DNA from: Chaetoceros tenuissimus
Taxonomy: Eukaryota > Bacillariophyta > Thalassiosirophyceae > Chaetocerotales > Chaetocerotaceae
DNA: 64,000 bases
Reading direction: 5' to 3'
Assembly (NCBI GenBank): GCA_021927905.1
Contig: BLLK01000047.1
Location: 1,116,001 to 1,180,000 of the forward strand
Under the pieces are notes generated by a model. The model saw only the letters and a list, made by a program, of their open reading frames with translations. It did not search any database and was not told the DNA's origin. The position numbers and the translations under genes were made by a program. Below, piece by piece: positions 10,418 to 61,838 of the stretch (position 1 is the first letter of the stretch; the number at the start of each line of letters is the position of its first letter).

Positions 10418-10985
10418 TATGGGTTCTCGCTTTTATGAAAAATAATGAGGGAGGTGTTTTGGTGGGAAGTGAAGACGAAGACGAACGACGTTCTCTGTTT
10501 TACGACTACCAGCTGGCTTACCACGTAGTTCCTTGTGTGAGGTTATTTAGCGCGCGAAAACAATGACTTTTTCCCGCCATTTTTCCTAAAATTTCCACAG
10601 CCATTCATTTTTCAAAAATACAAAAGATCTTTTCACACAGCACAAAGCACAAAAAGCAACATCCACCTTCTTCTCAGTTTTCAGACAAGTGATGGAGAAT
10701 GGCGTAGGTGCTTGCCCCGTTTCAATTCTATTGAAGCCGAGGGCAGCTCATCTTTATGATGCAGCAAAGGCACTTGGGTAAATTCCCCGGATACAACGAT
10801 AGAGAGTATCGCTTCGAAAGAAGTTCCGCCGTGGATGCCGCTTCTTTGCGACGACGGTCCTTGCTTTTTCGGGAGGGCAAGAGCACTTTGGGAAGTCGGC
10901 TCCATTACACAGGCGCTATCTGAGCAAAGTTATGCCATATGATTAACCAAACGGGGGTCACTACCATCCTTTCTGAAAACTGTCC
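10418..10985. other. intergenic, no gene recognised
   Basis: About 570 bp upstream of the plastid-protein gene and of the first Sec-type tRNA. The part at 10681-10910 is more GC-rich than its surroundings and holds a 74-codon minus-strand open frame with no recognisable product. The last ~30 bp (10951-10981) resemble the sequence just upstream of the second Sec-type tRNA. Confidence 0.5.
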
Positions 10986-11072
10986 GTGCGCATGATCCTG
11001 CCTGGTGGTGGGTGCAGGCCTTAAATCTGTAGGGGATTAGCGTCCCAGTCGTTCGATTCGACCTTGCGCACA
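10986..11072 (+). tRNA. selenocysteine-type tRNA with UUA anticodon (reads UAA)
   Basis: 87 nt, the same length and layout as eukaryotic tRNA-Sec. Acceptor arm GTGCGCA (10986-10992) pairs perfectly with TGCGCAC (11065-11071), extended Sec-style toward nine positions. Six-pair D stem CCTGCC/GGTGGG with the TGGT loop as in human tRNA-Sec. Variable arm GGGA/TCCC with six-nt loop TTAGCG. Four-pair T stem GTCG/CGAC with loop TTCGATT. The anticodon loop is CC-TTA-AA (anticodon 11021-11023), so it would pair with the stop codon UAA. Oddities: C instead of U at position 33, a G-U closing pair on the anticodon stem, and A (11072) instead of G as discriminator base. These could mean altered charging or a decaying copy. 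A normal UCA copy lies 2.8 kb downstream. Confidence 0.75.
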
Positions 11073-11241
11073 CCGTATATAAATGAAGTTTAGATGGATA
11101 ATCAACTTAGATTTATCTAGACTTTTAGTTATGAATCCATGATTGAAAGGAAAGAGAAGAGTAGCACAGAGATTAAGGCAGCCATCCAAGGTGAGTATGG
11201 ATCCTTCTTGGTTTGCATCACAACCTCGTCACCATTCTCAT

Positions 11242-13215
11242 CTATCCATGTCTCTCCTTCATCTCCTTAATTTTGTCTCTCAACAGTTTTGCTGCATATC
11301 CTTTCTTGTTCCACTGATTATAATGCTCGAGCATAATTTCATAGTTACGCAAACGATTAATTCTCTGTGCTTCATTTGAAAGTCGAGACCAAGGAGTTTC
11401 TGTCGGAACTAACTTCAGTTCAGGAATATTTGCCGCTGCGATCATTTGGGTAACTTGTTTCTCAGTGATATTCTTACTACGTGATTTGTCAGTAGTTTTG
11501 AAGGCAAGGCATTCGTCGTTCATGGTTTTGAAGAGTTTACGATTGTCGATCGCAAATTGACGTCCTTGCTCTTCTGTCAAAACTTCTCCATAATCTTTTT
11601 TATTGATGATCCAGATGAGAGAAATGAGAGTCGAAACACACAGAGCAGAGACATAAGTACCCTTTACTTGATTTTCAGTTCCTGGACTCAGACGCAAATT
11701 TACTACTGAATATACAATAGCAGGGTCCTTGGTTTTTCTGATTGGGGAAGTCTCATCAGCTTGGTTTTTACCAACTCGATCAGTGAGCTCGTCTATATCC
11801 GCAACAAAGTTATCCTCCTCAAAAAGATTGTCGTTGCAAACTTGCACAATCATCGCATTTCTAAATTCTCGTGATGCATTGAAAAGTACTTCAGTCATAA
11901 TTCCTTCATGTACTCCAGCTTTTGGAAATCATAGTTAAAAAGTATTGCAGTTATAAAATAAGCAAAACACTTCAAGGCTTACCTCTTGCTCCTCTACCAC
12001 CATTCATCATTTCACGTCTTCTACCTCTAATATTTCTTTCCAACCTTGCTTCAGGGGAGTTATATACCACAGTCTGTCTGTGAACTTTCTGATTTGCTCT
12101 GATGTCTGCTCTTATTTCTTCCTTCGTTTTCCTACAAAGATTTCCACTACGTTTTGATTTCTGTGACTTTTTCATAGCAAATCCAACATTACGCTTATGT
12201 TCTCGAATTTTATCTCTGATCTCCGGATCGCGACCGTTGATATAATTTTGAATTTCTCTCGTTTTGCCTTCTGCACAAAGTTCTTGACATGGCTGTCCAA
12301 GTGGGTTATTTTTATTGTAAGCTTCCATCTGATCTGCAATAGCTTCCATATCATCATGATACTCTTGCACTAAACGATCATCCATTTCCCAACAAATGTT
12401 ATGCAGACAAGCTGATGAAACACGAATTACCTTTCCATTTACATCTAGCACTGGTAGTTTACATTGATCCTTTAAATGGAGAGCTAGAAATAACCCGCAA
12501 TCTCTACCACATTCACAAGGTTCTTTCATGTCGTACAACCCTCTGATATTCAGTAGCTCCAAGGTAAAAGAAGATGAAACACTACCAATCATATTGCTCT
12601 TAGGGTCACGCATAGTATGACAAATGAATTCATAAGGGGAACATCCTGGATTCGCTGCCATGTATTTGCTCCCATTCTTTGAGTTTTGAACAAATGGAAG
12701 CATTAGTTGATTCAAAAAGTTAGTAGCTCGGACAGTCCTTTCTTGAAGCAGTGGTGGATCATCCTCATTTTCAGGGTCGGGTTCACGGTTTACTTCCTCA
12801 TGAGCAAATTCCAATGCTTTTTGAAATTTGTGATCATCAGGCACTTTCTCAGTTGCACGTTGAATAGTATCATCGTCATTATGCAGATACATGGTGATTG
12901 CAAGAAGACAACTGGTGCAATGACGAACCAATGTAGATCCTTTATCTCCCTCAACCTCCTCAACTACCTCAACTTCCACAACTTCCACAACTTCCTCAAA
13001 TCCCTCGTCTTCCTCAGCTACGTCAACTATCTCCACGTCCTCAACATCCTCAAGTACTCTAGTTCTACCTTCCTGAATTTCGGAAAGTCTTTCGAATAGA
13101 TTTCGTTTTGTAAAATCACAATTGCAACCTGGGCAAGGACGTCCCACTGAGATGAAAAGGTAAGAAGAGTGAGAGAATGGTTTGGAATCCAGTGAAAGTA
13201 AATAGAAGACTTACT
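11242..13215 (-). CDS. acidic-repeat/Cys-containing protein of unknown function, three exons
   Basis: Two protein-coding exons join in phase: 13146-11983 and 11918-11242, across a 64-nt GT-AG intron (11919-11982). A further intron (13147-13214, GTAAGT...TCTCAG) splits the start: the A of ATG is the last base of the upstream exon at 13215 and TG opens the next exon. Without it the frame has only a GTG. The product is 613 aa. It opens with CPGCNC, a zinc-ribbon-like cluster, then an acidic Val/Glu repeat (about residues 30-68), then CECGRDCG and other Cys residues mid-protein, a Lys/Arg-rich RGRRREMMNGGRGARG patch, and a C-terminal helical, possibly membrane-touching part. I do not recognise the family. 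The gene lies between the two Sec-type tRNAs. Confidence 0.65.
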
Positions 13216-13786
13216 TTTGATAGTAGAAAGATCGATTCGATTGCTTGTGATGATTCGATTGGTTGAGTAGAGAAAGTCAATTGGACAATTGGATTTCTTA
13301 GATTGTAACAATACTACAATTCAATTCTATTTGAAATGAGTAATTGGTTCTTTTTCACGAAGAGCTTTTTAATGAGAAGTGAGAGTACTCGCAAACATGA
13401 GTGAAGCGAGCAAAGGAGATGAAAATTCGAAAAATACACAAGACTGCACAAATAAACAATTAGCTTATAGAATAATTAGCTTACAATTTTTAAATGTTCC
13501 ATTTTTATAAAGAGTCTTTTCCTGCAAACCTGTCTTAACCTTTATCTACTTATGATAGATTGTGCTTAGCGGTATTGTACTACACTTGTGAGTGCTTCCT
13601 TGATGGAGTTGTCCAGTATCATTCCATCGATTCCAACCGTAGATACAACTCTATGTTCAAAGTCTTCCTAACTGATTTGACCCTTGAATTGTTTCAATGC
13701 AGCTTGCATGAGGTCATCTTGAGTGGCTTCCAAATCTTCACGACGGGGGCTACTACTGTCCTTTCTGAAAACTCCCTCCTCTTTTT
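13216..13786. other. intergenic with a coding-like minus-strand remnant
   Basis: No complete gene. On the minus strand 13668-13775 reads as a plausible C-terminal peptide (VFRKDSSSPRREDLEATQ continuing to QFKGQIS, then stop), and 13562-13640 reads in another frame as a short peptide ending VVQYR. These may be remnants of a degraded gene. The block 13743-13773 is shared, at reduced identity, with the sequence upstream of the first Sec-type tRNA. Confidence 0.4.
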
Positions 13787-13873
13787 GTGTGCATGATCCT
13801 GCCTGGTGGTGGGTGCAGGCTTCAAACCTGTGGCGGCTTGACGGCCGAGTTGTTCGATTCAACCTTGCGCACG
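13787..13873 (+). tRNA. selenocysteine tRNA, anticodon UCA
   Basis: 87 nt, the standard eukaryotic tRNA-Sec fold. Acceptor GTGTGCA (13787-13793) pairs with TGCGCAC (13866-13872) with one T-G wobble, and the discriminator is G (13873) as required for serylation by SerRS in this family. D stem CCTGCC/GGTGGG with TGGT loop; anticodon loop CT-TCA-AA (anticodon 13822-13824) after the conserved GTGCAGG; variable arm CGGC/GCCG with loop TTGACG; T stem GTTG/CAAC with loop TTCGATT, which also serves as a B-box-like element. It inserts selenocysteine at UGA. It differs from the 10986 copy at about 14 positions, six of them in three compensated base pairs. No clear T-run terminator lies immediately downstream. 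Confidence 0.9.
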
Positions 13874-14218
13874 TTGTTTGTATGTAAGTGAAAGAGATTG
13901 GATTATGGATGATGGAGATGAACAAGGAATCATTAGACCAAGCTGTAGAATAATTAGTACATGACTGCCCATTGCAATCAGATAAGAAGCAGAAATTTTC
14001 TATTAAAATATTTGATAACCAATACACACATTATGTACATTTTTCTTTGAAATATTGCTTGAATTGTTTATATGTAAATATAAAGTTGCCATCTGAGAGT
14101 CAGATAAATGTCCTCCGATTTTAAATATTCTTTGCTTTGATCATACCTCCATGGACTATTAAAATATATATTTATTGTTTGTTTTCGACCTCATCAGCTC
14201 TGATATTCGATTTTTTTC

Positions 14219-18509: not shown

Positions 18510-21500
18510 ATGTCTTCCTTCTTCTTGGTCTTTGCTTTGGTTGCTTCTTTTGTAGGCGGCAATGATAACCGAAGATTTTCCCTCATAACACTAGCTGCGA
18601 CTCTAGCTCCTCCCAAATCAATGTATGCCAATGCACTTGATTCAAACGTACCGGATCTGGATTTGAGTGATGCAGGACCAGTAGAACCGTCTTCAAAAAG
18701 CAGAGGATCTACTCTCTTTATTGGTATTGTGATCCTACTTCAATCCCTTTTTGTGACCAACTACTTCTATATCAAGAGTTTACGTTGTCAAAGAGACAAT
18801 GAGCCAGAACCTATTCGAAGCCTTGTCAGTTCTGAACAAATGGAGAAAGCCACTAACGCTATGAACGAAACTTGGCTATTCTTCTTTGACCCCAAACAAT
18901 TGGATAAGAAAAGAAGGAAAGAGAAAGCTGCATGGCTTCGTGAGCGAAGGTTGCTCTGGTTGAGCATTGTGCTTCAAGGCCTTTTTCTCAATCAAGTTCG
19001 AAAAGAACCATTAGATGAAAAACGTTTTGTTGAATGGAAACCAATTACAAAAAAAAAGGGGTTGATTACAACTTCACTCCTTTTAATTCTATCTTCAATT
19101 CTATTAAGCCCTTCCCTTTTAGGAAGTGACTCGAAGGATATGTTAGTACCTGATTTATGCGTGAAGGAGGAAAGTGATCCTCTCATGCAAAAGATGAGAA
19201 ACGATTTGGATCTTGAAATGAATATCAAAGCCGCACGAGATCAAGCGAAATTCTATTCTGATCTTGCAACTGCTTTAAAAAACGATACCAGTCTATATGG
19301 TACTAGTGACTATAGATGTCCAAATATCACTGACAATGATGGCAAAGGAGACAATTTATCTGGCGATAAGAGTGTGTGGGAAAGTGACCCTTTCTCTTAT
19401 CCCCAGTCAAAATATGGTGAATTCTTTCCTGGATACTGTGGAGCTTCACGAGTCAAAGCTCTTGAAAATGCACGTAGTGCGATGTGCAAAAAAAAGCATT
19501 GCATTGGTGGTGTCACAGGTTTTTTCAGAGGAGTTTTTGGTCAAAAGAGGTGCTGGAAAACCCCTGTTGCGTGCCCGAAGCATACTGGTAAGTCATACAT
19601 GACCTAGAACATTTGTGCAACTTAAATTTTTCTAAAAGAAGTTTGCCATAGCTGATCAGGAATCTGATACAGAGAATTATCGATATGCCCAGTATAAAAG
19701 AGCCCAGGAGCTTCAAGACGCAGTCGAGAAATTTGCCGAAAACGCAGAAAAGAAATTTGAAGAAGTATCTTCAAATGCAGGCGCAACGTTGGCAAAAATA
19801 CTTTTTCGGATAGATGTTGCGAGCTCAGTCTATGTATTGTACAAAGGAATTTCGCTATTCCTACCTGTCCCTCTTGAAATGTTCCGACCGGAATTTGGTA
19901 CTTTAATCAAAATGCATTTATCTGGTGCAAGTAGCGCTAAATTTTGCATTTATGCTCTTTTTGTATGGTGGGGTGTAGAGTATTTCTCTCAATTTCATTC
20001 AGTATTGAAAAAGTACATTAATCCTGACTATCTAAAAGCTCCATGCTTTGCTGATAAAGACTTTTTACAACAAAGATCGGAATTGCTGTATGATAGGTGC
20101 GACGAGATTGTGAACTTATCCAACGCTATTGCTCTTGACAACGTTACTATTTATCACATTGCTACTGAAGTGTTGGCATTTCAAAAGCATTGCAACTGCA
20201 AGTTTCCTCATGTTCACACCAAAGAGCTCGATATTCCACTTACAGTCGCTGAATTTGGAATGGAAGCAATAGATGTTTGCAAAGGCAGTTGCGATGATGT
20301 CAAAGACGAAATACCTGAAGTTCCAAAATGGCTTGTTAATTTTGAAGGAAAGTCTCTACAAGAAATGGTTGATGGGGCCGTGATTCCAGCACAAAAGTTT
20401 GAATATGTAATCCCAATTCCTTCGAAAAATATGTCTTTTGTGGGAAACTCCACTCTCTGTTTTGACCCAACATACTCAAGAAAGAAGTATTTTATGCCTC
20501 CGAAAACAAATGTCCGTATATTTGATGTGTGGTTCAAGACAGGCATTCTTTCCATGTTGTCCTTGAGATTTTTCATTGCCGTCTTTGGATTTTGGTTACT
20601 TCGTTTAGCTGACCCTTTTTCGAGTTGTGATGGGAGATACCTCAACCCTCCAAAGAAATATGTGCTTGAAGAAAGTGATGAGAGTCTAACTGAAATGAAA
20701 GACAATACTTTGCTAGCATTACGTTCAATTGCCTTGAAACAAGTTGTACTTTACATCGTCATCACTAATTTGGCATTGATCAATCTCATCATCGTTGTGG
20801 CTGGTAATAATGATAGAGACAACTCGAAAGATGCATTATACCTTGGGACGACATTATCCGTGGCATTGGCTGTTCCAATGGCAGCAGCATGCTTCTTCAA
20901 TAGAAACTCAGGCAATCAATTCAAGTTTTGGAGAAAGAAGGAAGATTCTTCGTCGGTATTCGAACGACTATTCTATCCATCTGGAGATAGTAGAGACTTC
21001 GGTTTGAGTCTATCCAAGTCAAATGATTCCAGCAATGCAGGTCCATTGAGAAATCTCGCAAAAGGTGGAAAGACCAAGGCCGAAAAGAAGAAAAAGGGAG
21101 AAACAAGCTTTCTGCCGTTGTTTCAACAGAAACAGAATAAAAAAGCAGCGCAACCTGCAAAAAGTAAAAGTAGTGCAGCAAAAGGTGCAAAGTCTGCGAA
21201 AAAGAAAGAGGATGAGAGCAAAGGCGCTTTCGGGCAATGGGGCATTTACACAGAATCTTCACCGAAAGAGGAGAAAAAGACTTTCCTTTCTACCATGACG
21301 AATATTGTCACTCCTGCCCAAAGCAGTAAAAAGAAGAAGAAGAATGACGAAGAACAAAACATTTTTTCTTTTCCAGCCATCACACCATCATCTCCAACAA
21401 AAAAGTCAACTCCAGAGAAACTAAGAAACAGCAAGAAAAAGAAAACAAGTTCAGATCAGAAGGAGCCATCTTATAGCTTTTTCCCTAGTACTTGTGGAAT

Positions 21501-22227
21501 GGAACCTGCAAAAAGTAAAAGTAGTGCAGCAAAAGGTGCAAAGTCTGCGAAAAAGAAAGAGGATGAGAGCAAAGGCGCTTTCGGGCAATGGGGCATTTAC
21601 ACAGAATCTTCACCGAAAGAGGAGAAAAAGACTTTCCTTTCTACCATGACGAATATTGTCACTCCTGCCCAAAGCAGTAAAAAGAAGAAGAAGAATGACG
21701 AAGAACAAAACATTTTTTCTTTTCCAACCATCACACCATCATCTCCAACAAAAAAGTCAACTCCAGAGAAACTAAGAAACAGCAAGAAAAAGAAAACAAG
21801 TTCAGATCAGAAGGAGCCATCTTATAGCTTTTTCCCTAGTACTTGTGGAATGGAACCTGCAAAAAGTAAAAGTAGTGCAGCAAAAGGTGCAAAGTCTGCG
21901 AAAAAGAAAGAGGATGAGAGCAAAGGCGCTTTCGGGCAATGGGGCATTTACACAGAATCTTCACCGAAAGAGGAGAAAAAGACTTTCCTTTCTACCATGA
22001 CGAATATTGTCACTCCTGCCCAAAGCAGTAAAAAGAAGAAGAAGAATGATGAAGAACAAAACATTTTTTCTTTTCCAGCCATCACACCATCATCTCCAAC
22101 AAAAAAGTCAACTCCAGAGAAACTAAGAAACAGCAAGAAAAAGAAAACAAGTTCAGATCAGAAGGAGCCATCTTATAGCTTTTTCCCTAGTACTTGTGGA
22201 ATGGATTCTATTTGGAACAATGTCTAG
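18510..22227 (+). CDS. multi-pass membrane protein with a repeated Lys-rich tail
   Basis: Two coding blocks, 18510-19587 and from about 19673 to 22227, join across an intron with a strong donor (G|GTAAGT at 19588). The acceptor that keeps phase is at 19671-19672; a closer AG at 19637-19638 does not keep phase with that donor, so this join is tentative. The product is about 1,210 aa. It has an N-terminal hydrophobic stretch, several membrane spans (around LFIGIVILLQSLFV, LLILSSILL, LSLRFFIAVFGFWLL, YIVITNLALINLIIVVAG and LGTTLSVALAVPMAAACFF), paired extracellular Cys residues, and a cytosolic-looking tail. The tail contains three 117-aa repeats, each rich in Lys and Ser. I do not recognise the family. 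The layout resembles cell-surface stalk or fusion proteins, but that is speculation. Confidence 0.65.
21154..22206 (+). repeat. three tandem 351-bp coding repeats
   Basis: Units begin at 21154, 21505 and 21856, each opening with the codons for PAKSKSSAAKGAKSAKKKED. They are almost identical at the DNA level; visible differences include a GCC/ACC change (Ala/Thr after SFP) in the middle unit and a synonymous GAC/GAT change in the last. The period of 351 is a multiple of three, so copy-number change keeps the frame. Confidence 0.95.
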
Positions 22228-27213: not shown

Positions 27214-29244
27214 ATGCAGAAGAACGAAGACGACAACAGTAGCCACGACACATCTAGAGTCACTCCTCCTAGTACTAGTGCACCGGATGAATGGTTAGAT
27301 AACGATGTTGAGTGTGCAGAGGAATCTGTAGTTGCTAGTAGAGTCGTTCCAAGAGAAGAAGAAGCAGTTGCTAACCCTGCAGGTGTTTCTTCAGCATATA
27401 TCGATCTCTCAAAGAACATTGAAGAGAAAGATCATAAAGCATCTCCTCAAGCAAGAAGAAAAAGAATCAAATATTGCTTGGTGATTTTTGCACTTCTTGT
27501 GTTAGGAATCATTGGGGCGACCGTTGGAACTTATCTTAATAAGGTAGTCTCTAGTAAGAAAGTGAAGCCGGTGTGCAAAGTTTACAATGAAGAAGAGCTT
27601 GGAAATGGTGTTTGCAATTCAGACTACAACACTGAAATTTGCAAGTGGGACGGTGGAGACTGTGTTGAAATTAATAAGATTGTGGAGATGTACCCTGACT
27701 GTTGGGCGAGTCAAATGTGGCACAAGTATGGGACTGATTTAGACTCTAGTTGGGGTGATGGATCCATTTGCAATTACGGGTTCAATAGTGAGGAATGTGG
27801 TTGGGATCTGGGTGACTGTGACTTGTACAACTCTTTGGTAAATTGTGATGTTCTTCATCCTGACAGGATTGGTGATGGAATCTGCCATGTTGGCAGAGTA
27901 TACAATACCGAAGCATCTGGCTTCGATGGCGGAGATTGTAAAGAGTTTTATGAAAAGTACCCTAATTGTACGTACGAACCTAAAGACTGGCAAGGGTTTA
28001 CTAAAGTTGGTGATGGAATTTGTGATACAAATTACCTAGGAATGAACAATGAAAGATGTGGCTTCGAGGATGGAGACTGCGACGAGTTCAACGAAAAATA
28101 TCCAAACTGCAATGTGGAAAATCCCAGATGGATTGGTAATGGGGTATGCAGTGGCTCGTATAACACAGAAGCATGTGGTTTTGATGGTGGAGACTGCGCC
28201 GACTTCAATGAGAAATATCCAAACTGTAATGCTGATACTCCAAAAGAAGTTGGCGATGGATACTGCGATGGAGGAGAATACAACACAGAAGAATGTGGTT
28301 TTGATGGTGGAGACTGTACTAAGTTCAATAATAAATATCCAAACTGTGATGTTGATAATCCCTACCGTATCGGCGATGGACGCTGCCATAACTGGGGAGA
28401 ATACAACACAGAAGCATGTGGTTTTGATGGTAGGGACTGTATCGAGTTCAATGAGAAATATCCAGATTGTGATGCGCCCTTTCCAATAGACATTGGTGAT
28501 GGTAGTTGTTTTGGAGGATACAACACAGAAGAATGTGGTTTCGATGGTGGAGACTGTGCCGAGTTTAATGAGAAATATCCAAATTGTGATGTCGATATTC
28601 CTACCCGTATTGGTGATGGAAGGTGCGATGGAAGAGAATACAACACAGAAGCATGTGGCTTTGACGGTGGAGACTGCATCGTATTCAATGAAAAATATCC
28701 AGATTGTAATGTCGATATTACTTACTGGATTGGTGATGGAGAATGCCATGGAAGAGAATACAACACAGAAGAATGTGGCTTCGATGGTGGAGACTGTTCT
28801 GAGTTCAATGAGAAATATCCAAATTGTTCAGCTTTTATTGTCGATATTATTGGCGATGGAAAGTGCGATGGAGAAGAATATAACACAGAGGAATGTGGCT
28901 TCGATGGTGGAGACTGTATCGAGTTCAATGAGAAATATCCAAACTGCAATGCTGAACTCCAGAAGAAGTTGGCGATGGTACATGCGACGGAGGGGAATCC
29001 AACACAGAAGCATGTGATTTTGATGGTGGAGACTGCGCCTACTTCAATGAGAAATATCCAGATTGTGATGTCGATCATCCTCACTGGATTGGTAATGGAT
29101 ACTGTAGTGGAGGAGAATACAACACAGAGGAATGTGGCTTCGATGGTGGAGACTGTACCTAGATCAATGAGAAACATCCATATTGTGATGTCATTATTCC
29201 TGACTGGATTGGCAATTGATGGTGCAACAAAGATTACAACATAG
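27214..29244 (+). CDS. single-pass LNR (Notch-type repeat) receptor-like protein, copy 1, 3' end decaying
   Basis: 676 codons. An acidic cytosolic N-terminus (86 aa), one membrane span at about 87-107 after a RRKRIK stop-transfer, then roughly a dozen Lin-12/Notch repeats with the pattern [21 protein letters not shown] and calcium-type Asp/Gly positions. The topology is type II. Near 28955 one base is missing relative to the sibling repeats (GAT-ACT-CCA became GA-ACT-CCA), so the last ~95 codons are read out of frame. Two or three further LNR units remain recognisable in the other frame to about 29160, followed by stops. The intact part may still be functional. LNR proteins are common in diatoms; the ligand or role is unknown. 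Confidence 0.8.
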
Positions 29245-29904
29245 TTGAATGAGGATACGATGTGTCTATTGTCTTGATTGATCGTGGAAGTTTTTTATAC
29301 ATGGTAAAATAATTTTATGTTTGAGTAAATACTAGAAGCATGATACATTGAATGAGATTCATACTTTGGATTTTGTTTGAAATAATGAGCTGATTAAAGA
29401 TACTCCTTCTCTTGACACTTCTTGACACTAACTTTGCGACATTTCAAAATGGCCTCTTTTGAAACAAATTTGTAATTTTTATTTTTATTAAAAGCAGCTT
29501 ACGAAGTAGACTTATAATTCTATAGATAAGTATTATATTGATGTACACTTATCAAATTGCTATTCTAGGTATGAATAGTAAATATTGATGAAAAAGAGTG
29601 AAGTGAGGAAATGTAGGTCTTTGCACATTTGACAAAAAGCGAAAATAGCTAGCACTAACATGATACGGATAGAGCTATGCATCTCTGCTCGAGCAGATCT
29701 GTGGCTAATGAATAATGAATAATGAATGTTTCAAAAGCCATCATCTAATACATCTTACAATTGACATCGTTCCTAAAGTTTCATCGTTTCTATTGTATCA
29801 TCAAGAAAATGAAGAAGGGACTCGACTCCCAGAAAGCAAGACAGTAGCTTCGCTCGGAGGCTCAACGCTCAACGCTCATTCTCACCCCTCGTCACCGCAG
29901 TAAT
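29245..29904. other. duplicated 3' flank plus decayed STI1 leader
   Basis: No gene. 29407-29670 matches, with many changes, 33176-33480 behind the second LNR gene. 29780-29812 (TTTCTATTGTATCATCA run) matches the leader just before the STI1 start at 33633. The stretch is therefore a relic of the STI1 promoter and start carried in the tandem duplication. Confidence 0.55.
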
Positions 29905-30024
29905 TTTTATCACTTTTTTCAAAAGAGCGAATCTTTTATGGTGAAAAAATGTTCTACTCGTACACTAGCAGGCGACATAATGTTTACAAAGAGCAAAGTA
30001 ATGGTCTTGTAGAAATCAACAACC

Positions 30025-32855
30025 ATGCCTAAGAAGGAAGATGAAAAGATTAGACACGACACATCTAGAGTCGCTGTTGCACCGGAAGAATGTTCTGATA
30101 ACGATGTTGAGTGTGCAGAGGAATCTGTAGTTGCTAGTAGAGTCGTTCCAAGAGAAGAAGAAGCAGTTGCTAACCCTGCAGGCGTTTCTCCAGCATATAT
30201 ATCTCCAGCATATATCGATCTCTCCAAGGACATCGAAGAGAAAGATCATGAAGCATCTCCTCAAGCAAGAAGAAAAAGAATCAAATATTGCTTGGTGATT
30301 TCTTTTGCAGTTGTGTTTGGAATTATTGGTGCGACCATTGGAATAATTATTACAAGTAAGAAGCCGGTGTGCGAAAAGGAAAACAAAGAAGAAGAGCTTG
30401 GAAACGGTGTTTGCAATTCAGACTACAACACTAAAAATTGCGAGTGGGACGGTGGAGACTGTGATGAATGGAATAAGAAGGCAGAGAAGTACCCTGACTG
30501 TTTTGCCTATCCCTATCGTGGGTGGGGTGATGGATCTTGCGATTACAGATACAACACTGAAAGCTGCGGGTGGGATTTGGGTGATTGCGACTTGTACAAC
30601 TCTTTGATACATTGTGATGTTCCATATCCTGAGTATATTGGTGATGGAATCTGCCATATCGGTAGAGGATACAATACCGAAGCATGTGGTTTCGATGGTG
30701 GAGACTGTAAAGAGTTTTATGAGAAGTACCCTAATTGTACCTACGGAGAAGATTTCTACTTTGCTGAAACAGTTGGTGATGGAATTTGTGATACCAACTT
30801 CCTTAACCCTTTTCTGCCTAGCTGCTCAAAACTGCTCAATTTTTAGCGAATATCCTAAAATATTCAATATTTGACCAATTTGAGTAATTCCAATTACGTT
30901 ATCTTCCTTCTATATATGTGTTGGATGCGTGTGCAAAATAGAAATATTTTCATACATGTATTTGATGAGATATCATATACTTTCCATACACATTTTTCCA
31001 ATGACGTCCAGTCATGGGGTCAAAATGTCATACAAAAAACGTAATACAAAAAGTTGCTATTTTTTGGGGATGCGAATATATATGCATTACAAGGTGATAT
31101 GAATACATTTGATAGCTCAAAATCCTTCTCTGAACATTGTTGAAACGATATGAGTTGAGAGATATGGAACTTAGATGGGTTTTGAAGACGCTATAGAGCG
31201 ATTCCTACAGTCTATGAAATTTATCGCCAAAATCGAGATTTTTATGTTACACTGAGTAGATCTACAAATCGATCTAATAGCCAGAAAAATAAACAATGGT
31301 ACCATCTGACATGCTCAACTGATATAAGAATACCATTGTGATGATCTTCAATCAAATTCCTACTAAGAATAAGCATATTGTAAGTGATATAGACTCTTTC
31401 ATTGTCAACAGATGAGTGTTCTTTTCCAATCCCATTTGTCGTCTCATCTTCACAATTTGAGTATTCGATGGATTGACCAACAAGTTCCCCAGGTCTCGCT
31501 TCCAAATCATTCCTTAATACATCAAGTTCACCGGAAGGTACTGGGCATGTGGATTGTGCAACTCTGTCATCAGATACATAGCCTTAAGTACAATCATCGC
31601 TGAAACTGATCTCAGAACCACTCATCGTGCTATAACGGCGAATTTTGTTAGTAATTTCATATATACGAAAAAACTGACTTCACTACCTACTTACTGAGAA
31701 TATTTTGTATGTATATTTAAAATTTGGAAGAGATTGAAGTTTTCATTATGGATTTAGAGTAGTGTTTGTGTTAAGGATATGTTGTTGTTTTGTTCGTGAA
31801 TCGCTGATTTTTTGAGTCCCAACTGGGCAGAAAAGGGTTAAGCTGAATAATGAAGAATGCGGCTTCGAGGATGGAGACTGTGACGAGTTCAACGAAAAAT
31901 ATCCCAATTGCGAAGCATATGTAATCTCCAAAATTGGTGATGGACACTGCGATGGAGGAGAATACAACACAGAAGAATGTGGCTTCGATGGTGGAGACTG
32001 CACCGAATTCAATCTGAAATATCCAAACTGTTTGGTGTACCTGAAGTCATTGGTGATGGACATTGCGATGGAGGAGAATATAACACAGAAGCATGTGGCT
32101 TCGATGGTGGAGACTGTAATGAGTTTAATAAGAAATATCCAAACTGTGATGTTAATAGCCCAGAAAGAGTTGGCGATGAACGCTGCAATGGAGGAGAATA
32201 CAACACAGAAGCATGTGGCTTCGATGGTGGAGACTGCATTGAGTTCAATGAGAAATATCCAAACTGTTCAGCTTTCATTGTCGATAATATTGGCGATGGA
32301 GAGTGCGATGGAGAAGAATATAACACAGAAGCATGTGGCTTCGATGGTGGGGATTGCACCGAGTTCAATGAGAAATATCCAGATTGTGATGTCGATGATC
32401 CTGACTGGATTGGTGATGGACAGTGCGATGGAGGACCATACAACACAGAAGCATGTGGCTTTGATGGTGGAGACTGCATTGAGTTCAATGAGAAATATCC
32501 AGATTGTTATGTTGATGATCCTGACTGGATTGGTGATGGAGAGTGCGATAAATGGGGAGAATACAACACAGAGGAATGTGGCTTCGATGGTGGAGACTGC
32601 GCAGAGTTCAATGAGAAATATCCAGATTGTGATGTCGATGACAAATATTTGCTTGGCGATGGAAAGTGCCATGGAGGGGAATACAACACAGAGGCATGTG
32701 ATTTCGATGGTGGGGACTGCGCCGAGTTCAATGAGAAATATCCAGATTGTGATGTTAACAATCCTTACTTGATTGGCGATGGAGAGTGCCAAAATTACAT
32801 GGACAAGTACATGACTGCTGAATGCGGATACGATGGTGGAGACTGTCTTGATTAA
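30025..32855 (+). pseudogene. LNR receptor-like protein, copy 2, interrupted by a piggyBac-type element
   Basis: The N-terminal part (30025-30806) closely copies the first LNR gene: the acidic tail with [20 protein letters not shown], the RRKRIK-flanked span and the first LNR units. It is cut at a TTAA by a 1,031-bp element (30807-31837). Behind the element the coding sequence resumes in register at 31842 ([13 protein letters not shown], matching [13 protein letters not shown] in copy 1). A further frameshift lies near 32025-32035, between the NLKYPNC unit and VIGDGHCDGG, after which about seven LNRs run to the stop at 32853. Before these events it would have been a type II LNR protein like its neighbour. 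Unless the element is removed the product is a 273-aa truncated membrane protein. Confidence 0.75.
30807..31837. mobile_element. non-autonomous piggyBac-type DNA transposon with TTAA target duplication
   Basis: 1,031 bp flanked on both sides by TTAA (30803-30806 and 31838-31841). Terminal inverted repeats start CCCTTTTCTGCC and, read inward from the right end, are identical for 12 bp and similar for 18 bp (TAGCTG versus CAGTTG). CCC..GGG termini and TTAA duplications are the hallmark of piggyBac. On the minus strand 31242-31505 encodes a peptide (RWYHCLFFWLLDRFV preceded by YNMLILSRNL) that looks like the end of a piggyBac transposase. The rest of the transposase is absent, so the copy is a deletion derivative that would need a transposase in trans. 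Both TTAA copies and 12 bp of ends are perfect, so the insertion looks young. Confidence 0.85.
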
Positions 32856-44539: not shown

Positions 44540-44613
44540 GCACGGGTGGTCTAGTTGGTTATGACGACTGGTTTACACCCAGTAGGTCGGGAGTTCGATT
44601 CTCTCCCTGTGTA
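44540..44613 (+). tRNA. tRNA-Val, anticodon UAC
   Basis: 74 nt. Acceptor GCACGGG (44540-44546) pairs with CCTGTGT (44606-44612) with two wobbles, discriminator A. D arm TGGTCTAGTTGGTTATGAC; anticodon stem ACTGG/CCAGT with loop TTTACAC (anticodon 44574-44576); T stem GGGAG/CTCTC with loop TTCGATT. A T-rich run (TTTTCTTTTT) starting at 44615 is a good Pol III terminator. Confidence 0.92.
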
Positions 44614-54660: not shown

Positions 54661-57600
54661 ATGTCTTTGTTCGCTGATTTCATTCCTACCGGCCCAGGTA
54701 AGCAACCTGCTAAAGTGCGTGGGGGGGAAGAGATGATGATGATGATGATGATAATGTCAGTCCTTTCTCTGATTCTTGGACGGAGGCAGGGTCTGCAAAC
54801 ACTGCCCCTCCAGTCAGATACGGACGCTGTGTAGCGCTGGTCAATGATCTCGAAGCCTTGTGCTGTGGGAGAATTGGCAACAATGGGAATGTCTTCTGTG
54901 GAGCGGTCGGCTCGAAGGGATGCCCAACCAGCCATGAGAACAAGGTGGCAGTTCTGGAGGCCCGCAAAGCTACAGGTGCTGCTGCTTTGTACTACATGTC
55001 TAGATCTTCTACTAAGGTCAAGCTTTCTGTTGATCCGATGCTGGATGCTGCTAACTTGGATACCATGGAGATTGCTGGACTCCTTCAGGCCAACTTCAAG
55101 GATCAAGGAGATTGGATGCATGAAGTTGAGGCTAGAACTGAAGCTCTATTGACTGGTGTCTCTCTTGCTATTGCTAGATCTACCGTCAAGAAACCTGCCG
55201 TGTTCAGCAAGATGGACGATGAAGAGGATATGGAGGACGTTGCTCATGGACTGACTGACATGTTCGATAAAGCTGCTCTTAATTCACCTGAGAGAGTGAG
55301 TGACCAGAAACCAGCTGCTATCGAGCCCAAGGAAGAAGGATGGTTGACGTTAGTGGACAAGCAGATTGAAGCGTGGATGAGTTCTGCTAATCAAAAGCTC
55401 GAGAAAGATGTCGAAGATCTTACTACCAAGTATCAGATGCTTTGTACCCAGGTGGGAAATCCAAGTGTTCACCTCGCAAGAGCAGGGCAATCTATTTGGG
55501 AAGCAATCGAAGATACAGGTGCTCCGGATCTCATGAAGGTAGTACAAGATCCTGTCAAGCTCAAGGATCTGCAAGAGGCTGTATTTCAGAATCAAGACTT
55601 CAAGAAGTATCTCAAATCTACTAAGGATACGGTTCAGAGCATCACCAACAGAATCAGTAAATTGGAGCTGGCTAATGCGAACCGGTCTACTGCCCCTGCT
55701 ACTGCTACTTCTCTTTTTGACAGCTTTCATGTTGGAGTCGCGGCACCACCACCAGCTGCAGCTCCGAATGGAGATACTCTGGCAAAGTTAGCTCAGAAGG
55801 TAGCAGATCTTGAACGAGCTAAGAATGGAAATTCTTCTAGAGGAGAGATCACTGTGGTATTCAAGGATCGGGTATTCACTTCACCTAGAGATGTGCGTTC
55901 AGCTTTCAGAATGAATCCTACATCTACTTCTCTGGTACGTCCGTCGATGGTCTACGATGCTTACATCCTCTTCGACCTTGTAGCCGACAGAGTATTTGGC
56001 TATCCGGATGAGAGGAAGTTCTCTCCAGATAAAGCTCACAGGCTTAACAGGAGCGTCAAGGACTTGTTGCATATCCAGTCATCTACCTTGAGTGGGCTAC
56101 CTAACTTCTTCGATGGATCAAAGAGCTCAAAAATATTCATGGATGGTAGTATTAAAGGATCAAAGGCGAGTGTGTTCTCTAACATCAAGTCCCATGATAT
56201 TTGGGGCCCTATGGGGACTCCAAACAATTGTGTCAGGGTGGCTGCAGAAAGGGCTTTGGATTCCATCAAGCTGGAATACTTGAACAATCCCAGGGAAGGT
56301 TTGGATGCTTCGGTCACTGTACTATTGGATGCCATGCTGGTACGCTCTGTCGAATTCGTCAAGGCTGTGTTTCTCTTTCTCTCCAACGAGTATGAAACAC
56401 TAAAGCTGTACTTCAGTGAGGGAGACAAGTGCTGGAATTTCCTATGTAATTGTGTCAAGCAAGTGTTCTCAAGTGAATTCCATGTTGCTAGAGCTGTATC
56501 CAGTTCTGCTGATCATATGAACTGCGACGGAACTAATGTGAATGTGATTTGGACAGCACTGCGTACTATTTCTATCCAAGAAGACTTTCTTCGCGTGGGC
56601 TTTGAGAATCATTCTGGTTTATCTAGTGCCTACTCCCGTTTTATGCTCACCCATATGCCAAACAAGGCTGTCACTAAGCTACAGACTGAGATGGAGGGCA
56701 CGGTGAAGAAGGTAAAGGCAATCGAGGAGAAGTTGACAAAGGTAGAGGGTTTGGCAAACTCGGCTATTTCCAAGGCTGCAGCAGCAGGCGGAGGAAAGAA
56801 GAAGAAGGAGATCTGAAAGGTTGGGGTCAATGAAGTGAAAGTAAGACTAGAGGAAGAGTGTAGTGGCATTAAGTTAATTACACCTGTCAACACTCCTCTT
56901 TTCATATTTGCACAACATTGGCCCTCATTGGCCTTCAGTAGTGTGTCACTAGGTTGTAAAAATCTAACGACGGTAGTAGATGACATCACATTGCAAGGCA
57001 AGTTGGAGTTAGAAAAATCACAAATTGGGGTCACAGTTTGTAGAAGGAATGAAACTCTACGGGCATTGCATGCATTCAAGGGATCGTGCTGGGTAATGTT
57101 ACAAGGCTCAGTCAATTACCTTGTACAAATTCTCTCTGCTTTACCTCAGGAGATGGCTTCGCAGGCGGTGGTTCTCATAACTAATGGCAACAGGAGAAGA
57201 CTGAGAGACTTTGGTTTGAAGCGGTTCACCAAGATTCCTCATAGACATGTGGGTGGAGCATTGGATCACGTATGGTGGATTGGATCAGCCCAAGAACTGC
57301 ACATTCCAGCTGCTAAGGTGCATGCACAACTGAGAGATATGCTAAAGTGTACGGAGGAAGGAAGCTTCTACTCTGGCGAGATGAATACTCCAGCATATAT
57401 TCCCTTGGCTAGAATAAATGATCCCGTGATCTGTCCTTCGGTGTTAGTAAGATCTGGGAAGGTGAGGCGAAAGATAACTTCTGCTGAAGCTTTAGATCTG
57501 TACGATGTTGAAGTGCAGTACCAGCATTTCACATCTATAGATTTCAAGAAGCAAGCACCTGGAAAAATCACGTATGGGTTGATGGAATCGGTGTTGAAAG

Positions 57601-60600
57601 CTAGAAGTGTATTGAGTAAGAAGCGTGAAGTAGAGGACACCGGCAGTGATGTACCTTCGGCTAAGAAGGCAAGGGTAACGCAGATACTGGTAGAAGAAGA
57701 TCCGCAGATCGAGGATGTAAGGGAGGATCCAACAGTCAAGAGTGCCAAGGCAACCAAATCAGATGATGCCGAGGTTCAAGTGGACATTTGGAACAGACGA
57801 ATGTTTCAAAAGTGTTTGAGTGTTACCTATCAAGCGGATAAGCATGCTAAGATGTGTGATATGCTGCGAAGAGTTATGCTACGTTTCTATCAGAGAAAGA
57901 TCTACGCAAGCTTTAGAAAATACCTACACAAGGAGCATGGTGCTAAGGCAGTCTCAAGATACCATCAACTCAAGCAGAACAAGAAAAAGAAGCTATCTGA
58001 GTTGGAGAAGGATATCATCGTAGGAACAGATGCAATTCGTAGAGCCTCGGAAGCTTCATACTGGGAGTGGACTAGTGGTTCTACACTGTTCTTTTGGCGG
58101 TGGCCGGAGTGCTATCAACAGGAAGTAAGGGACGGTTTGGCTGTGACTTTGCTAGACAAGCCACCTGTTTACTGGAAGAAATCCAGATGGCCAGAGGATG
58201 ATAAACAGCTGGAAGCTATGCGGAAGAAGATCAAAAAGGTAGCGGATAGAGGCTATATCAAAGATGGAGAGGTGGACAGTTTGATTTCATTCTTTGCTGT
58301 ACCAAAGGGTGAAGAAGACATAAGAATGGTGTATGATGCCACCAAGTGTGGCTTGAACGAGGTTATCTGGTCACCAAACTTCTTTCTACCTACTGTAGCA
58401 ACGGTGGTACGAAGCGCTACTCCAGATACTTTCTTTGGTGACATAGATTTGGGGGAGATGTTTCTCAACTATTTCTTGGATGAGGATCTTAGATCAAGTG
58501 CTGGGGTGGATGTGACAAACATTGCTGATCTGCTTGAGGTGGAGGTTCCAGAGGGGAAGAGACTGATCATGCGATGGGAGAGGAACCTCATGGGGCTAAA
58601 GAGTTCTCTGTATAACTGCATCAGAACCTTTTTGTGGAGCGAAGACTTCATTCGTGGAGACAGAAAAGACAGCAACAATCCTTTACGGTGGGACACAGTA
58701 GTCACTAACTTGCCTGGCTCAGCTGATTATGATCCTACAAAGCCTTGGATCTACAGGTGGGATGAAACTAACAAGAGAATTGCTGCTTCCTTTTGTTCAT
58801 ATGTGGATGACATTCGTACTTGGGCTCAAGGTGAAGACCACTGCAACGAAGCAACTCGTACCATAGCTGCAAAGATTAACTATCTAGGTCAGCAAGATGC
58901 GCCGCGTAAAAGGAGAGAAGTGAGTCAGGCACCTGGAGCATGGGCTGGAGCTACAGTAGAAACAGTAGCTGGAGAAGGAGTCTACGCTTCTATACTTCCG
59001 GAGAAGTGGAACAAAGCTAGAGATATTGTGGAAAAGTGGCTAAGATGTGCTCCAGAGGAGGAGGAAGAGGACTGGAAGGTGAACCGGAAGGAGTTGGAGA
59101 AGGATACTGGTTTCTTGATTCATGTATGCTTAACCTTTGAAAATTTCAAGCCTTACTTGAAGGGTTTCTACAACACCCTTAATGGCTGGAGATGGGATAG
59201 GGACTCAGACGGTTGGAAGAGAAGCAATAAAGACTGGAAGCAGTATTGGGAAGATTTGGAAGCAGGAGATGGAACTACCAATGGTGTTGAATGGACCAAC
59301 ATTGGAAGTAGGGCGGAGCACTGGTCAGATGTAAAGTTCATGTTGAAGGAAGAACATCAAGATGACAATGCGCCTGTGTTTGTGAAGGGGGTACCTCGCT
59401 TCAAGCAAGATCTTAGAGTGCTTAGTAAGTTGCTAGAGTCAGAAACACCAAGTAAAAGACTCATAAGAGGTAGCAAAATCTGGGAGATAATCTACGGCTT
59501 TGGAGACGCGAGTGGATCCGGCTTTGGTATGTCATGGGAAAAAGACTGCAAGGGCGAGACTACAGGCAGATCAAGCATCTCTTACAGATTTGGAAGATGG
59601 GGAAGTGATATGGATGATTCTAGTTCTAATCTCCGCGAGCTGAAAAACCTAGTTCAGACGCTGGAGAAGATGGGAGAGAAAGAGCTAGAAGGAGTGGAGA
59701 TGTTTCTATTTACGGATAACTCCACAGCTGAAGCAGCCTTTTACAAGGGATCTTCAAGCTCAGAATGGCTGTTTGATTTGGTAGTGAGGCTTTCTGTGCT
59801 AGAAATGACTCGTAACTGCAAGATACATATCATACATGTAGCAGGCACTAGAATGATAGCGCAAGGCGCGGATGGTTTGAGCAGAGGAGCTCTAACTGAA
59901 GGAGTAATGAAAGGAGAAGCAATGAAATCATTTGTTCCGCTGCATCAGTCAGCCTTGGACAGAGATCCAGCACTGGAACCGTGGCTACGTGACTGGTTTG
60001 AAAGTGCAGGAAGAAATCAAGGCCAAGATTTGGAGTTTCTGTCCATGGAGGACTGGTTTGAGAGAGGTCATGACATTTTGGAAGGCAGTGTCAACGTAGA
60101 CGGTCAATGGGTTCCAAATTATGTATCTGGTAATTTTGTATGGTCGCCTCCTCCTAGCTTGGCTTTACCTTGCTTGGAAGAAATACGGCGCGCCAGACAC
60201 AAGAGACAAGAGTCAACTCACATTTTCATTTGTCCCAGGTTGATGACACCTGCATGGAAAAGGCATTTACACAAGGCGGCTGATATCATCTTGGAACTTC
60301 CCCCTGGTCATGCAGCTTGGAGTGTGAACATGTTTGAACCTTTACTAATAGCAATATTTTTTCCTTTCCTCAACAGTAGACCATGGCAACTCAAAGGGTC
60401 ACCAGCACTTTTGGAATTGGGAAGGAAGGTGCAACAGGTGTTCAAAGGAGACGAAAGCACCAAAAGACATGTTTTGCGGGAACTTTGGAATCTCCCGAGA
60501 AGGCTGCAAGGAATGTCAGATGAGTTGGTGCTGCGAGTGCTACGTATATCAGGGGAGCCTAGAATTTCATCGAAAGCTACCGGAAAACGACGAAGGAGCA

Positions 60601-61838
60601 AAGTGGAAGAAAACAAGCGACTCAAACCGTTTCAATCATGCTAGACCAGGAGATTCTTTTCTGGCTCCATTTCAATGTGACAATTGTTGCTTCATGAACC
60701 TGTATCTGAGAAATCCTAACCCGCACTCTCCCAGCGATGAAATAGCATTGAATTTGATTCGTCGTGCAAATCTTGATATGTTATGGGGTAGAGACTCTTC
60801 TACCGTGTCTAGTGCTTATGGTCAAATGCTACAGCTGAAGAAAATGTCTTCTAACTTAGGGTTGTTAGTTTCAAGGGACAAGATGGGACCTTGGCCAATT
60901 GAAGACTGCTCTGGAGTAGAAACGGCCATGTTGATGTTGTGGAAATCATTAGACAAGGGTCAAAAGGGAAGAAACTACTGTCAGTTTGACACTATTCGAA
61001 AAATACGTTCATTGAGAGAGAACATACATTCAGGCAGTGTAAATGGACTGCTCAGCAATGTTGCTTTCACGGATCAGAGAGGAAGAGTTTTTCATATGGA
61101 CAAATCTCCTATGCATACCAAATGGTTTCAACTATTCAGCAAGGGTTGTGAATCCCGGATGGGAAATTCTACATCACAAGACGCAGCTCTTTCAGTGGAA
61201 GCAATGCTAGCAATGTTGGAATTACTGGAGTTGAGAGTGCAACGTACTAGTACGTCTAAGGAAGAGAGAAGAATGGCGGTCATGATTGCCGCAGTACTTG
61301 TGGTAGGATTTTGTGCAGCTCTTAGAGGAGGTGAAATAATGCTGGTAGAAGCAACAGAGTTCTGCAGGAGAATAGATGCTGGAAGAGTTGAGTCTACACA
61401 GCACGTGCTGGTACCTCTTATGGGACGATTCAAAAATGAAATAGGAGAAAGAAACGTTCTACTAGCGTTGGTAGCTGTCACTAAGAGTGGAATTCAGATC
61501 AGAAAATGGTTGGATCGACTTGCAATGATCCTTAGCGTTGGAAATAATAAAAGGAAGGCAACCAATGACGGTAGTAGCAATCATGCTAAAATTGTAGAAC
61601 GCCAAAAGAAAACGTACGCGGAGGCAGTAAAGGCTCAGAATGAAGAATGTGTGGAGGAGATGAAGCAGCACGTAACGGCAGCATCATCTCATTAAATAGA
61701 AACCATCCGTTTCTGTATCGAGTAAACTAAAACTATAGAAGAGCAAGTACTTCATCTAGCTACAGAGTATTATATACTACATAGCTTAAGGGCAAGTAGC
61801 TACCAAAGGAGAGGTATTTCAACGTGGTTTCTATTTAA
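54661..61838 (+). mobile_element. DIRS-like tyrosine-recombinase retrotransposon
   Basis: Three long frames in the order and overlap typical of DIRS-type elements. A gag-like region (to 56816) has a Cys-rich start and coiled coils. A reverse transcriptase/RNase H region (56835-60644) has the YVDD active-site box and a DIRS-like RNase H ending (HVAGTRMIAQGADGLSRG). An overlapping recombinase-like region (60469-61695) has an ALRGGEI box. No integrase or LTR is seen. A 14-bp perfect inverted repeat brackets the 3' non-coding part (61692-61838). The left boundary is unclear and may lie at the truncated tRNA near 54190. The copy looks largely whole, with perhaps one or two breaks, so it is probably young. 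Gag assignment is by position only. Confidence 0.75.
61692..61838. repeat. 14-bp perfect inverted repeat around a 119-bp spacer
   Basis: TTAAATAGAAACCA at 61692-61705 and its exact reverse complement at 61825-61838. It overlaps the stop of the recombinase frame and precedes the next element; it may be part of the 3' end of the DIRS-like element. Confidence 0.8.

Follow-up and report, generated by a model that had tools for sequence, protein, structure and literature searches.

What might a selenocysteine tRNA (tRNA-Sec) with the anticodon UUA be doing in a eukaryote? Such an element lies at positions 10986-11072 of the stretch of Chaetoceros tenuissimus DNA analysed here, which is 64 kb long and is called the window in the following. 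An earlier note on this DNA had described a full tRNA-Sec fold with UUA anticodon, C33 and A73 and, at 13787, a canonical UCA copy, and had predicted that the UUA copy, if expressed, would recode UAA. As a structural description this is accurate. The Rfam model search with RF01852, the eukaryotic tRNA-Sec family, matches 10986-11071 from end to end (69.6 bits, E 3.8e-12, gathering score 47), and RNAfold returns the cloverleaf as both the MFE and the centroid structure (-34.8 kcal/mol, z -2.18), with 6 of 200 shuffled sequences folding as well. The element possesses the 9/4 fold, the 6-bp D stem and the long variable arm of the eukaryotic tRNA-Sec body, and lacks three attributes of a functional one, as the anticodon loop reads CCUUAAA, placing C at position 33 and UUA in the anticodon, and the discriminator, position 73 at 11072, is an A instead of G. 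The UCA copy is matched by RF01852 at 13787-13872 with 74.1 bits, likewise above the gathering score of 47; its anticodon loop is CUUCAAA, its discriminator G and its folding energy -33.6 kcal/mol (z -1.20; equalled by 24 of 200 shuffles). The tRNA list produced by ARAGORN for the 64-kb window consists of the UCA copy and one tRNA-Val only, so the UUA copy was missed by this program.

The UUA element and its upstream neighbour

The features of the two loci are the following.

10685-10973, forward strand: likely RNase MRP RNA gene, start uncertain (RF00030, full model length, below the gathering score)
10779-10788, forward strand: putative 5' strand of MRP P4 (TAAATTCCCC), 2 mismatches to the consensus gaaAGuCCCC
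10797-10811, forward strand: putative MRP P8 hairpin, in which a 5-bp stem closes a GARAR pentaloop, GAGAG (definition in PMC1796607)
10926-10932, forward strand: putative MRP CR-IV, AAAGTTA (consensus AnAGUnA)
10946-10963, forward strand: putative 3' strand of MRP P4 (ACCAAACGGGGGTCACTA; consensus acnnnanGGGG)
10951-10981, forward strand: MRP 3' end plus a few bases, a 31-base element repeated before the UCA copy (repeat family D3)
10986-11072, forward strand: tRNA-Sec-like element with anticodon UUA, C33 and A73 (RF01852, 69.6 bits; fold)
11085-11126, forward strand: 15-bp hairpin ending in T4, a possible transcript end (fold z -2.71)
13743-13773, forward strand: orphan MRP 3' end, copied upstream of the UCA tRNA-Sec (27 of 31 bases identical)
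13787-13873, forward strand: canonical tRNA-Sec with UCA anticodon, U33 and G73 (RF01852, 74.1 bits; ARAGORN)

Only 12 bases separate the UUA element from the end of a match to RNase MRP RNA. When the 701 bases from 10500 to 11200 are searched with RF00030, the model matches 10685-10973 with 37.1 bits and an E value of 4.6e-9, below the gathering score of 50; a search of the whole window at relaxed threshold gives 10731-10973, again over the full model length, with 29 bits and E 1.5e-4. The available part of PMC1796607 gives as hallmarks of MRP RNA a 5' P4 strand gaaAGuCCCC, a GARAR pentaloop, CR-IV AnAGUnA and a 3' P4 strand acnnnanGGGG, and all of these, P4 strands, pentaloop and CR-IV, occur here in the proper order, the 5' P4 strand with two mismatches. 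In the window this set of four has a single occurrence, and 60 Markov-1 random sequences of 64 kb contain none; both strands were scanned, with thresholds chosen after the Rfam match and the candidate had been seen. Moreover, the MRP stretch folds better than its own shuffles (z -2.45). Judged by model match and motifs, the stretch at about 10685-10973 is likely to be an RNase MRP RNA gene, so that a tRNA-like fold is situated directly 3' of a noncoding RNA, as in genes of the MALAT1 type. A run of five T at 10865 lies inside the MRP match, and in some organisms such a run could terminate Pol III transcription; which terminator rule, or which polymerase, applies here is therefore uncertain.

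Between the MRP match and the UUA element runs of four or more T are absent, and the first one after MRP is encountered at 11123, 51 bases 3' of the element. Since roughly one T4 would be expected over 149 bases, its absence along this distance is weak evidence for a common transcript. The T4 at 11123 belongs to the hairpin 11085-11126, which is matched in stability by 3 of 200 shuffles. Elsewhere in the window, the tRNA-Val at 44540 is followed directly by T4 and T5, and the UCA tRNA-Sec has a T5 just upstream, at 13782, and no T4 for 123 bases downstream, the next being at 13996. For Ostreococcus the MRP gene is reported to finish in a T stretch (PMC7671301, available part).

Two tRNA-Sec copies and their history

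How did a tRNA-Sec come to lie behind an MRP gene, and how are the two copies related? A clue is provided by the 31-base elements at 10951-10981 and 13743-13773, which are identical at 27 of 31 positions and overlap the 3' end of the MRP match, while around the UCA copy (13250-14150) RNase MRP RNA is not matched at E values up to 5. Beyond the tRNA and the 31-base element, the best word common to 10600-11200 and 13300-14100 is 12 bases long (E 0.023). As the tail of MRP thus precedes the UCA copy too, the linkage between tRNA-Sec and MRP most simply predates the duplication. On this simplest reading of the sequence, tRNA-Sec would have been joined to MRP before the copies split, and the second locus would be a partial copy carrying the MRP tail together with the tRNA. 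Because the 31-base element reaches into the 3' end of the MRP match, the idea that it is a common tRNA-Sec promoter was dropped; for the UCA copy it may still have a role as an upstream element. An origin by retroposition was also considered for the UCA copy, the copied stretch stopping at the 3' end of the tRNA, and was rejected; the longest word shared by the close flanks has only 3 bases, which leaves it without support from a target-site duplication. Beside the orphan MRP tail, at 13566-13745 of the reverse strand, a protein-like frame with one TAG inside resembles what is left of a gene; the 25 residues preceding the TAG find no match in Pfam. The interval between the tRNA copies holds, at 11242-12892 of the reverse strand, two ORFs of 218 and 306 amino acids without Pfam match.

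The copies differ at 13 of the 86 positions of the fold and additionally at position 73. Nine of the 13 differences fall into paired sites and alter six pairs, three of them on both sides (C-G to G-C, C-G to A-U and U-A to C-G) and the other three on a single side; all six remain standard pairs. The UCA copy has 29 standard pairs, each of which is standard in the UUA copy as well, and the one non-standard pair among 30, an acceptor U-U, is the same in both, so that the UUA copy does not have the disrupted stems of a pseudogene. Human tRNA-Sec carries the acceptor U-U pair too. The D and T loops are identical in both copies; positions 33, 35 and 73 differ, and with regard to these the UUA copy shows the loss of functional sites that pseudogenes have. 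Simulated random substitution, 13 changes in number, leads to 5 to 7 non-standard pairs on average expectation, and at most one remains in only about 0.04-0.75% of the simulations, depending on the transition bias. Taken together, the two lines were consequently constrained in their fold during at least some of the time after the split, a statement that concerns the copies as a pair, as the simulation does not assign the paired changes to a branch. If the two-sided changes arose on the UCA branch, the UUA line is left with as few as four changes (33, 35, 39 and 73), the UCA copy agreeing with the consensus at each of these positions; in simulations, four random changes break no further pair in 7-18% of cases, and 6 to 10 changes in 0.2-8%. 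For the UUA copy alone the test of pair constraint is therefore weak, because most changes may fall on the UCA branch.

Processing signal, dead copy or decoding tRNA

What could the UUA copy be kept for, if it is kept at all? Two main readings deserve attention, an element for the processing of MRP RNA and a recently dead copy. According to the former, for which we see a nearly even chance from the arrangement of the locus, the element at 10986-11072 was once a tRNA-Sec and has since become the 3' punctuation of the transcript that carries RNase MRP RNA. The linkage to MRP suggests such a non-decoding role, which the earlier note did not consider. The polymerase would pass through the MRP RNA and then through the tRNA-like element, yielding one transcript, and an RNase P activity would cut at 10985/10986, thereby creating the 3' end of MRP RNA, whereupon the released tRNA-like piece would be neither charged nor used for decoding. 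In stramenopiles this activity probably belongs to PRORP, a protein-only enzyme. RNase P and RNase Z are expected to need the acceptor and T stems and the D and T loops; all of these are intact in the UUA copy, and the changed parts are those for charging and decoding only. As to the order of events, the ancestral unit could have consisted of MRP and a working tRNA-Sec, of which a partial copy with 31 bases of MRP tail arose, moving the decoding job to 13787; afterwards the MRP-linked copy would have lost U33, C35 and G73, and selection on the UUA copy itself would have preserved the fold needed by RNase P. This fuller account, in which MRP RNA obtains its 3' end from a domesticated tRNA-Sec cut off by protein-only RNase P and decoding has passed to the partial copy, is put forward tentatively, its chances being rather less than even. 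If it is true, maturation of RNase MRP is tied to RNase P, and a tRNA gene can give up decoding and still be retained for the sake of its shape. Among the open-licence papers listed by literature searches, at most 20 per search, none was seen to report an MRP-tRNA-Sec unit.

The UUA copy could also be a recently inactivated tRNA-Sec, hit at 33, 35, 39 and 73, that neighbours MRP by history only and whose decay began once the UCA copy took over. This main rival, already listed in the earlier note as a decaying duplicate, we regard as an appreciable possibility that stays clearly short of even. If only four changes belong to its branch, the lack of any further broken pair (7-18%) is unsurprising for a dead copy, and the first T4 lies as far as those 51 bases behind the element. 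In addition, the available sections of PMC5330540 report 178 tRNA-Sec candidates without G73 in 125 genomes, which may partly be pseudogenes, and draw the conclusion that G73 is essential. However, the 117 non-G73 predictions in multi-copy genomes score much below the G73 ones according to the same sections (PMC5330540), whereas here 69.6 bits stand against 74.1. Also against decay speaks that the unpaired changes assigned to the UUA copy by the Rfam consensus, together with position 73, are 33, 35 and 73 only, and that its fold is intact and by a small margin the more stable of the two (-34.8 versus -33.6 kcal/mol for the UCA copy).

A further conceivable role is that of a downstream promoter element, the B box of the T arm recruiting TFIIIC for transcription of MRP. 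In yeast U6 a downstream B block recruits TFIIIC, and the GTTCGATTC core (B box, T arm) is present in both tRNA-Sec copies. For a promoter, however, the anticodon and variable stems would be dispensable, yet both are preserved, and we consider this explanation improbable.

Could the UUA copy, finally, be expressed, charged with selenocysteine, serine or leucine and read UAA? Its tRNA-Sec body is complete as judged by RF01852, a CUA tRNA-Sec occurs in bacteria (PMC5330540) and in some species whose tRNA-Sec has the matching anticodon UAG, UAA and ten sense codons are reported to be recoded to selenocysteine (PMC10778597, available part). Against such a function stands A73, as G73 of tRNA-Sec is critical for serylation and any mutation at this position is reported to prevent it (PMC5330540). 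In that source, as far as available, G73 is present in 3,162 of 3,341 tRNA-Sec candidates overall, its presence in the 553 eukaryotic candidates being no independent evidence because they were chosen for G73. C33 has to be seen against U33, which like the anticodon triplet is 100% conserved in these 553 candidates (PMC5330540). Charging with leucine, which the earlier note had raised, finds weak backing: of the eukaryotic elements given in Table 1 of PMC9976931 (A73, C3-G70, A4-U69, G5-C68, a large variable region and U8:A14; available part), A73, G5-C68 and the long arm are present, but G3-C70 and C4-G69 replace C3-G70 and A4-U69, such that the leucine identity set is only partly there. UAA, moreover, behaves as an ordinary stop. 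It closes 11 of 30 ORFs picked by hand from 45 (the 15 dropped were mostly short or overlapped the frame of a longer ORF) and six of the ten ORFs with Pfam support among 20 scanned proteins (5/5 in the first set, 1/5 in the second), where ORFs are uninterrupted frames, introns left out, and some stops may not be true ends. In the five TAA-ending Pfam-supported ORFs of the first set the next in-frame stop follows 1 to 30 codons on. As UAA closes most of the Pfam-supported ORFs, a general UAA suppressor would be costly, which speaks against the ochre suppressor that had also been envisaged. No SECIS family matches in the 64-kb window at E values up to 2, no target for UAA-directed selenocysteine insertion was seen in it, and none of the open-licence papers listed by the literature searches, at most 20 per search, was seen to describe a eukaryotic tRNA-Sec with UUA. 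With A73, C33, UAA as ordinary stop and no SECIS match in the window, the recoding predicted at the outset is not supported, and decoding of UAA by this copy is highly unlikely; finding a stop anticodon in a tRNA-Sec body is not in itself evidence of an altered genetic code.

Several other ORFs of the window may be mentioned. At 27214-32855 adjoining ORFs contain many LNR (Notch)-like repeats and are apparent paralogs, one apparently split between frames, the Pfam match for the repeats coming from the one scanned ORF at 27214-29244. The ORF at 19879-22227 has a lysine-rich C-terminal part in which a unit of more than 100 residues occurs three times, almost identically. From 54001 on the G+C content is 0.43-0.46 as compared with 0.36-0.42 before, and within a stretch of higher G+C at 54996-61695 there are long ORFs resembling a retroelement; the ORF at 57096-60644 has no Pfam match.

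Comparison with known systems

Is a comparable arrangement known elsewhere? Searches of viral contigs gave 0 matches both with the eukaryotic tRNA-Sec pattern and with the MRP motif pattern, and scans for relatives through the neighbouring proteins yielded none that was confirmed, three pattern-matching stretches failing in tblastn. Three bacterial MAG loci matching the tRNA-Sec pattern in genome contigs were set aside as chance matches, ARAGORN finding a tRNA in none of the three; the two stretches that were inspected look protein-coding.

With eukaryotic tRNA-Sec (RF01852) the UUA copy shares the 9/4 fold, the six-pair D stem and the long variable arm, and differs from it by the UUA anticodon, C33 and A73. 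Multiple non-identical tRNA-Sec copies are also found in another diatom, Fragilariopsis cylindrus, for which eleven non-identical predictions, some with compensatory changes, are reported (PMC5330540); the available sections of that paper mention neither a UUA anticodon nor an MRP neighbour. A tRNA-Sec body with another stop anticodon is likewise known from bacterial non-UCA tRNA-Sec, but there matching recoded selenoprotein genes exist and none was seen in this window.

Nearer to the proposed processing role are plant dicistronic tRNA-snoRNA genes, reportedly described by Kruszka in 2003. They give rise to one precursor that is cut by tRNA enzymes (PMC10941002, available part). Both there and in the joint precursor proposed for the UUA copy a tRNA is joined to a small nucleolar RNA, yet the order is reversed here, with the RNA first and the tRNA second, and the RNA is MRP. 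MALAT1 and NEAT1 resemble the present locus in that a noncoding RNA is followed at its 3' end by a tRNA-like element, mascRNA or menRNA; RNase P and RNase Z cleave on either side of this element, and the RNase P cut provides the transcript with its 3' end (PMC12941219, available part). Unlike the present case, these two lncRNAs are made by Pol II and carry a triple helix at the 3' end so formed; here the host would be RNase MRP RNA, the element is a recognisable tRNA-Sec and the cutting is predicted.
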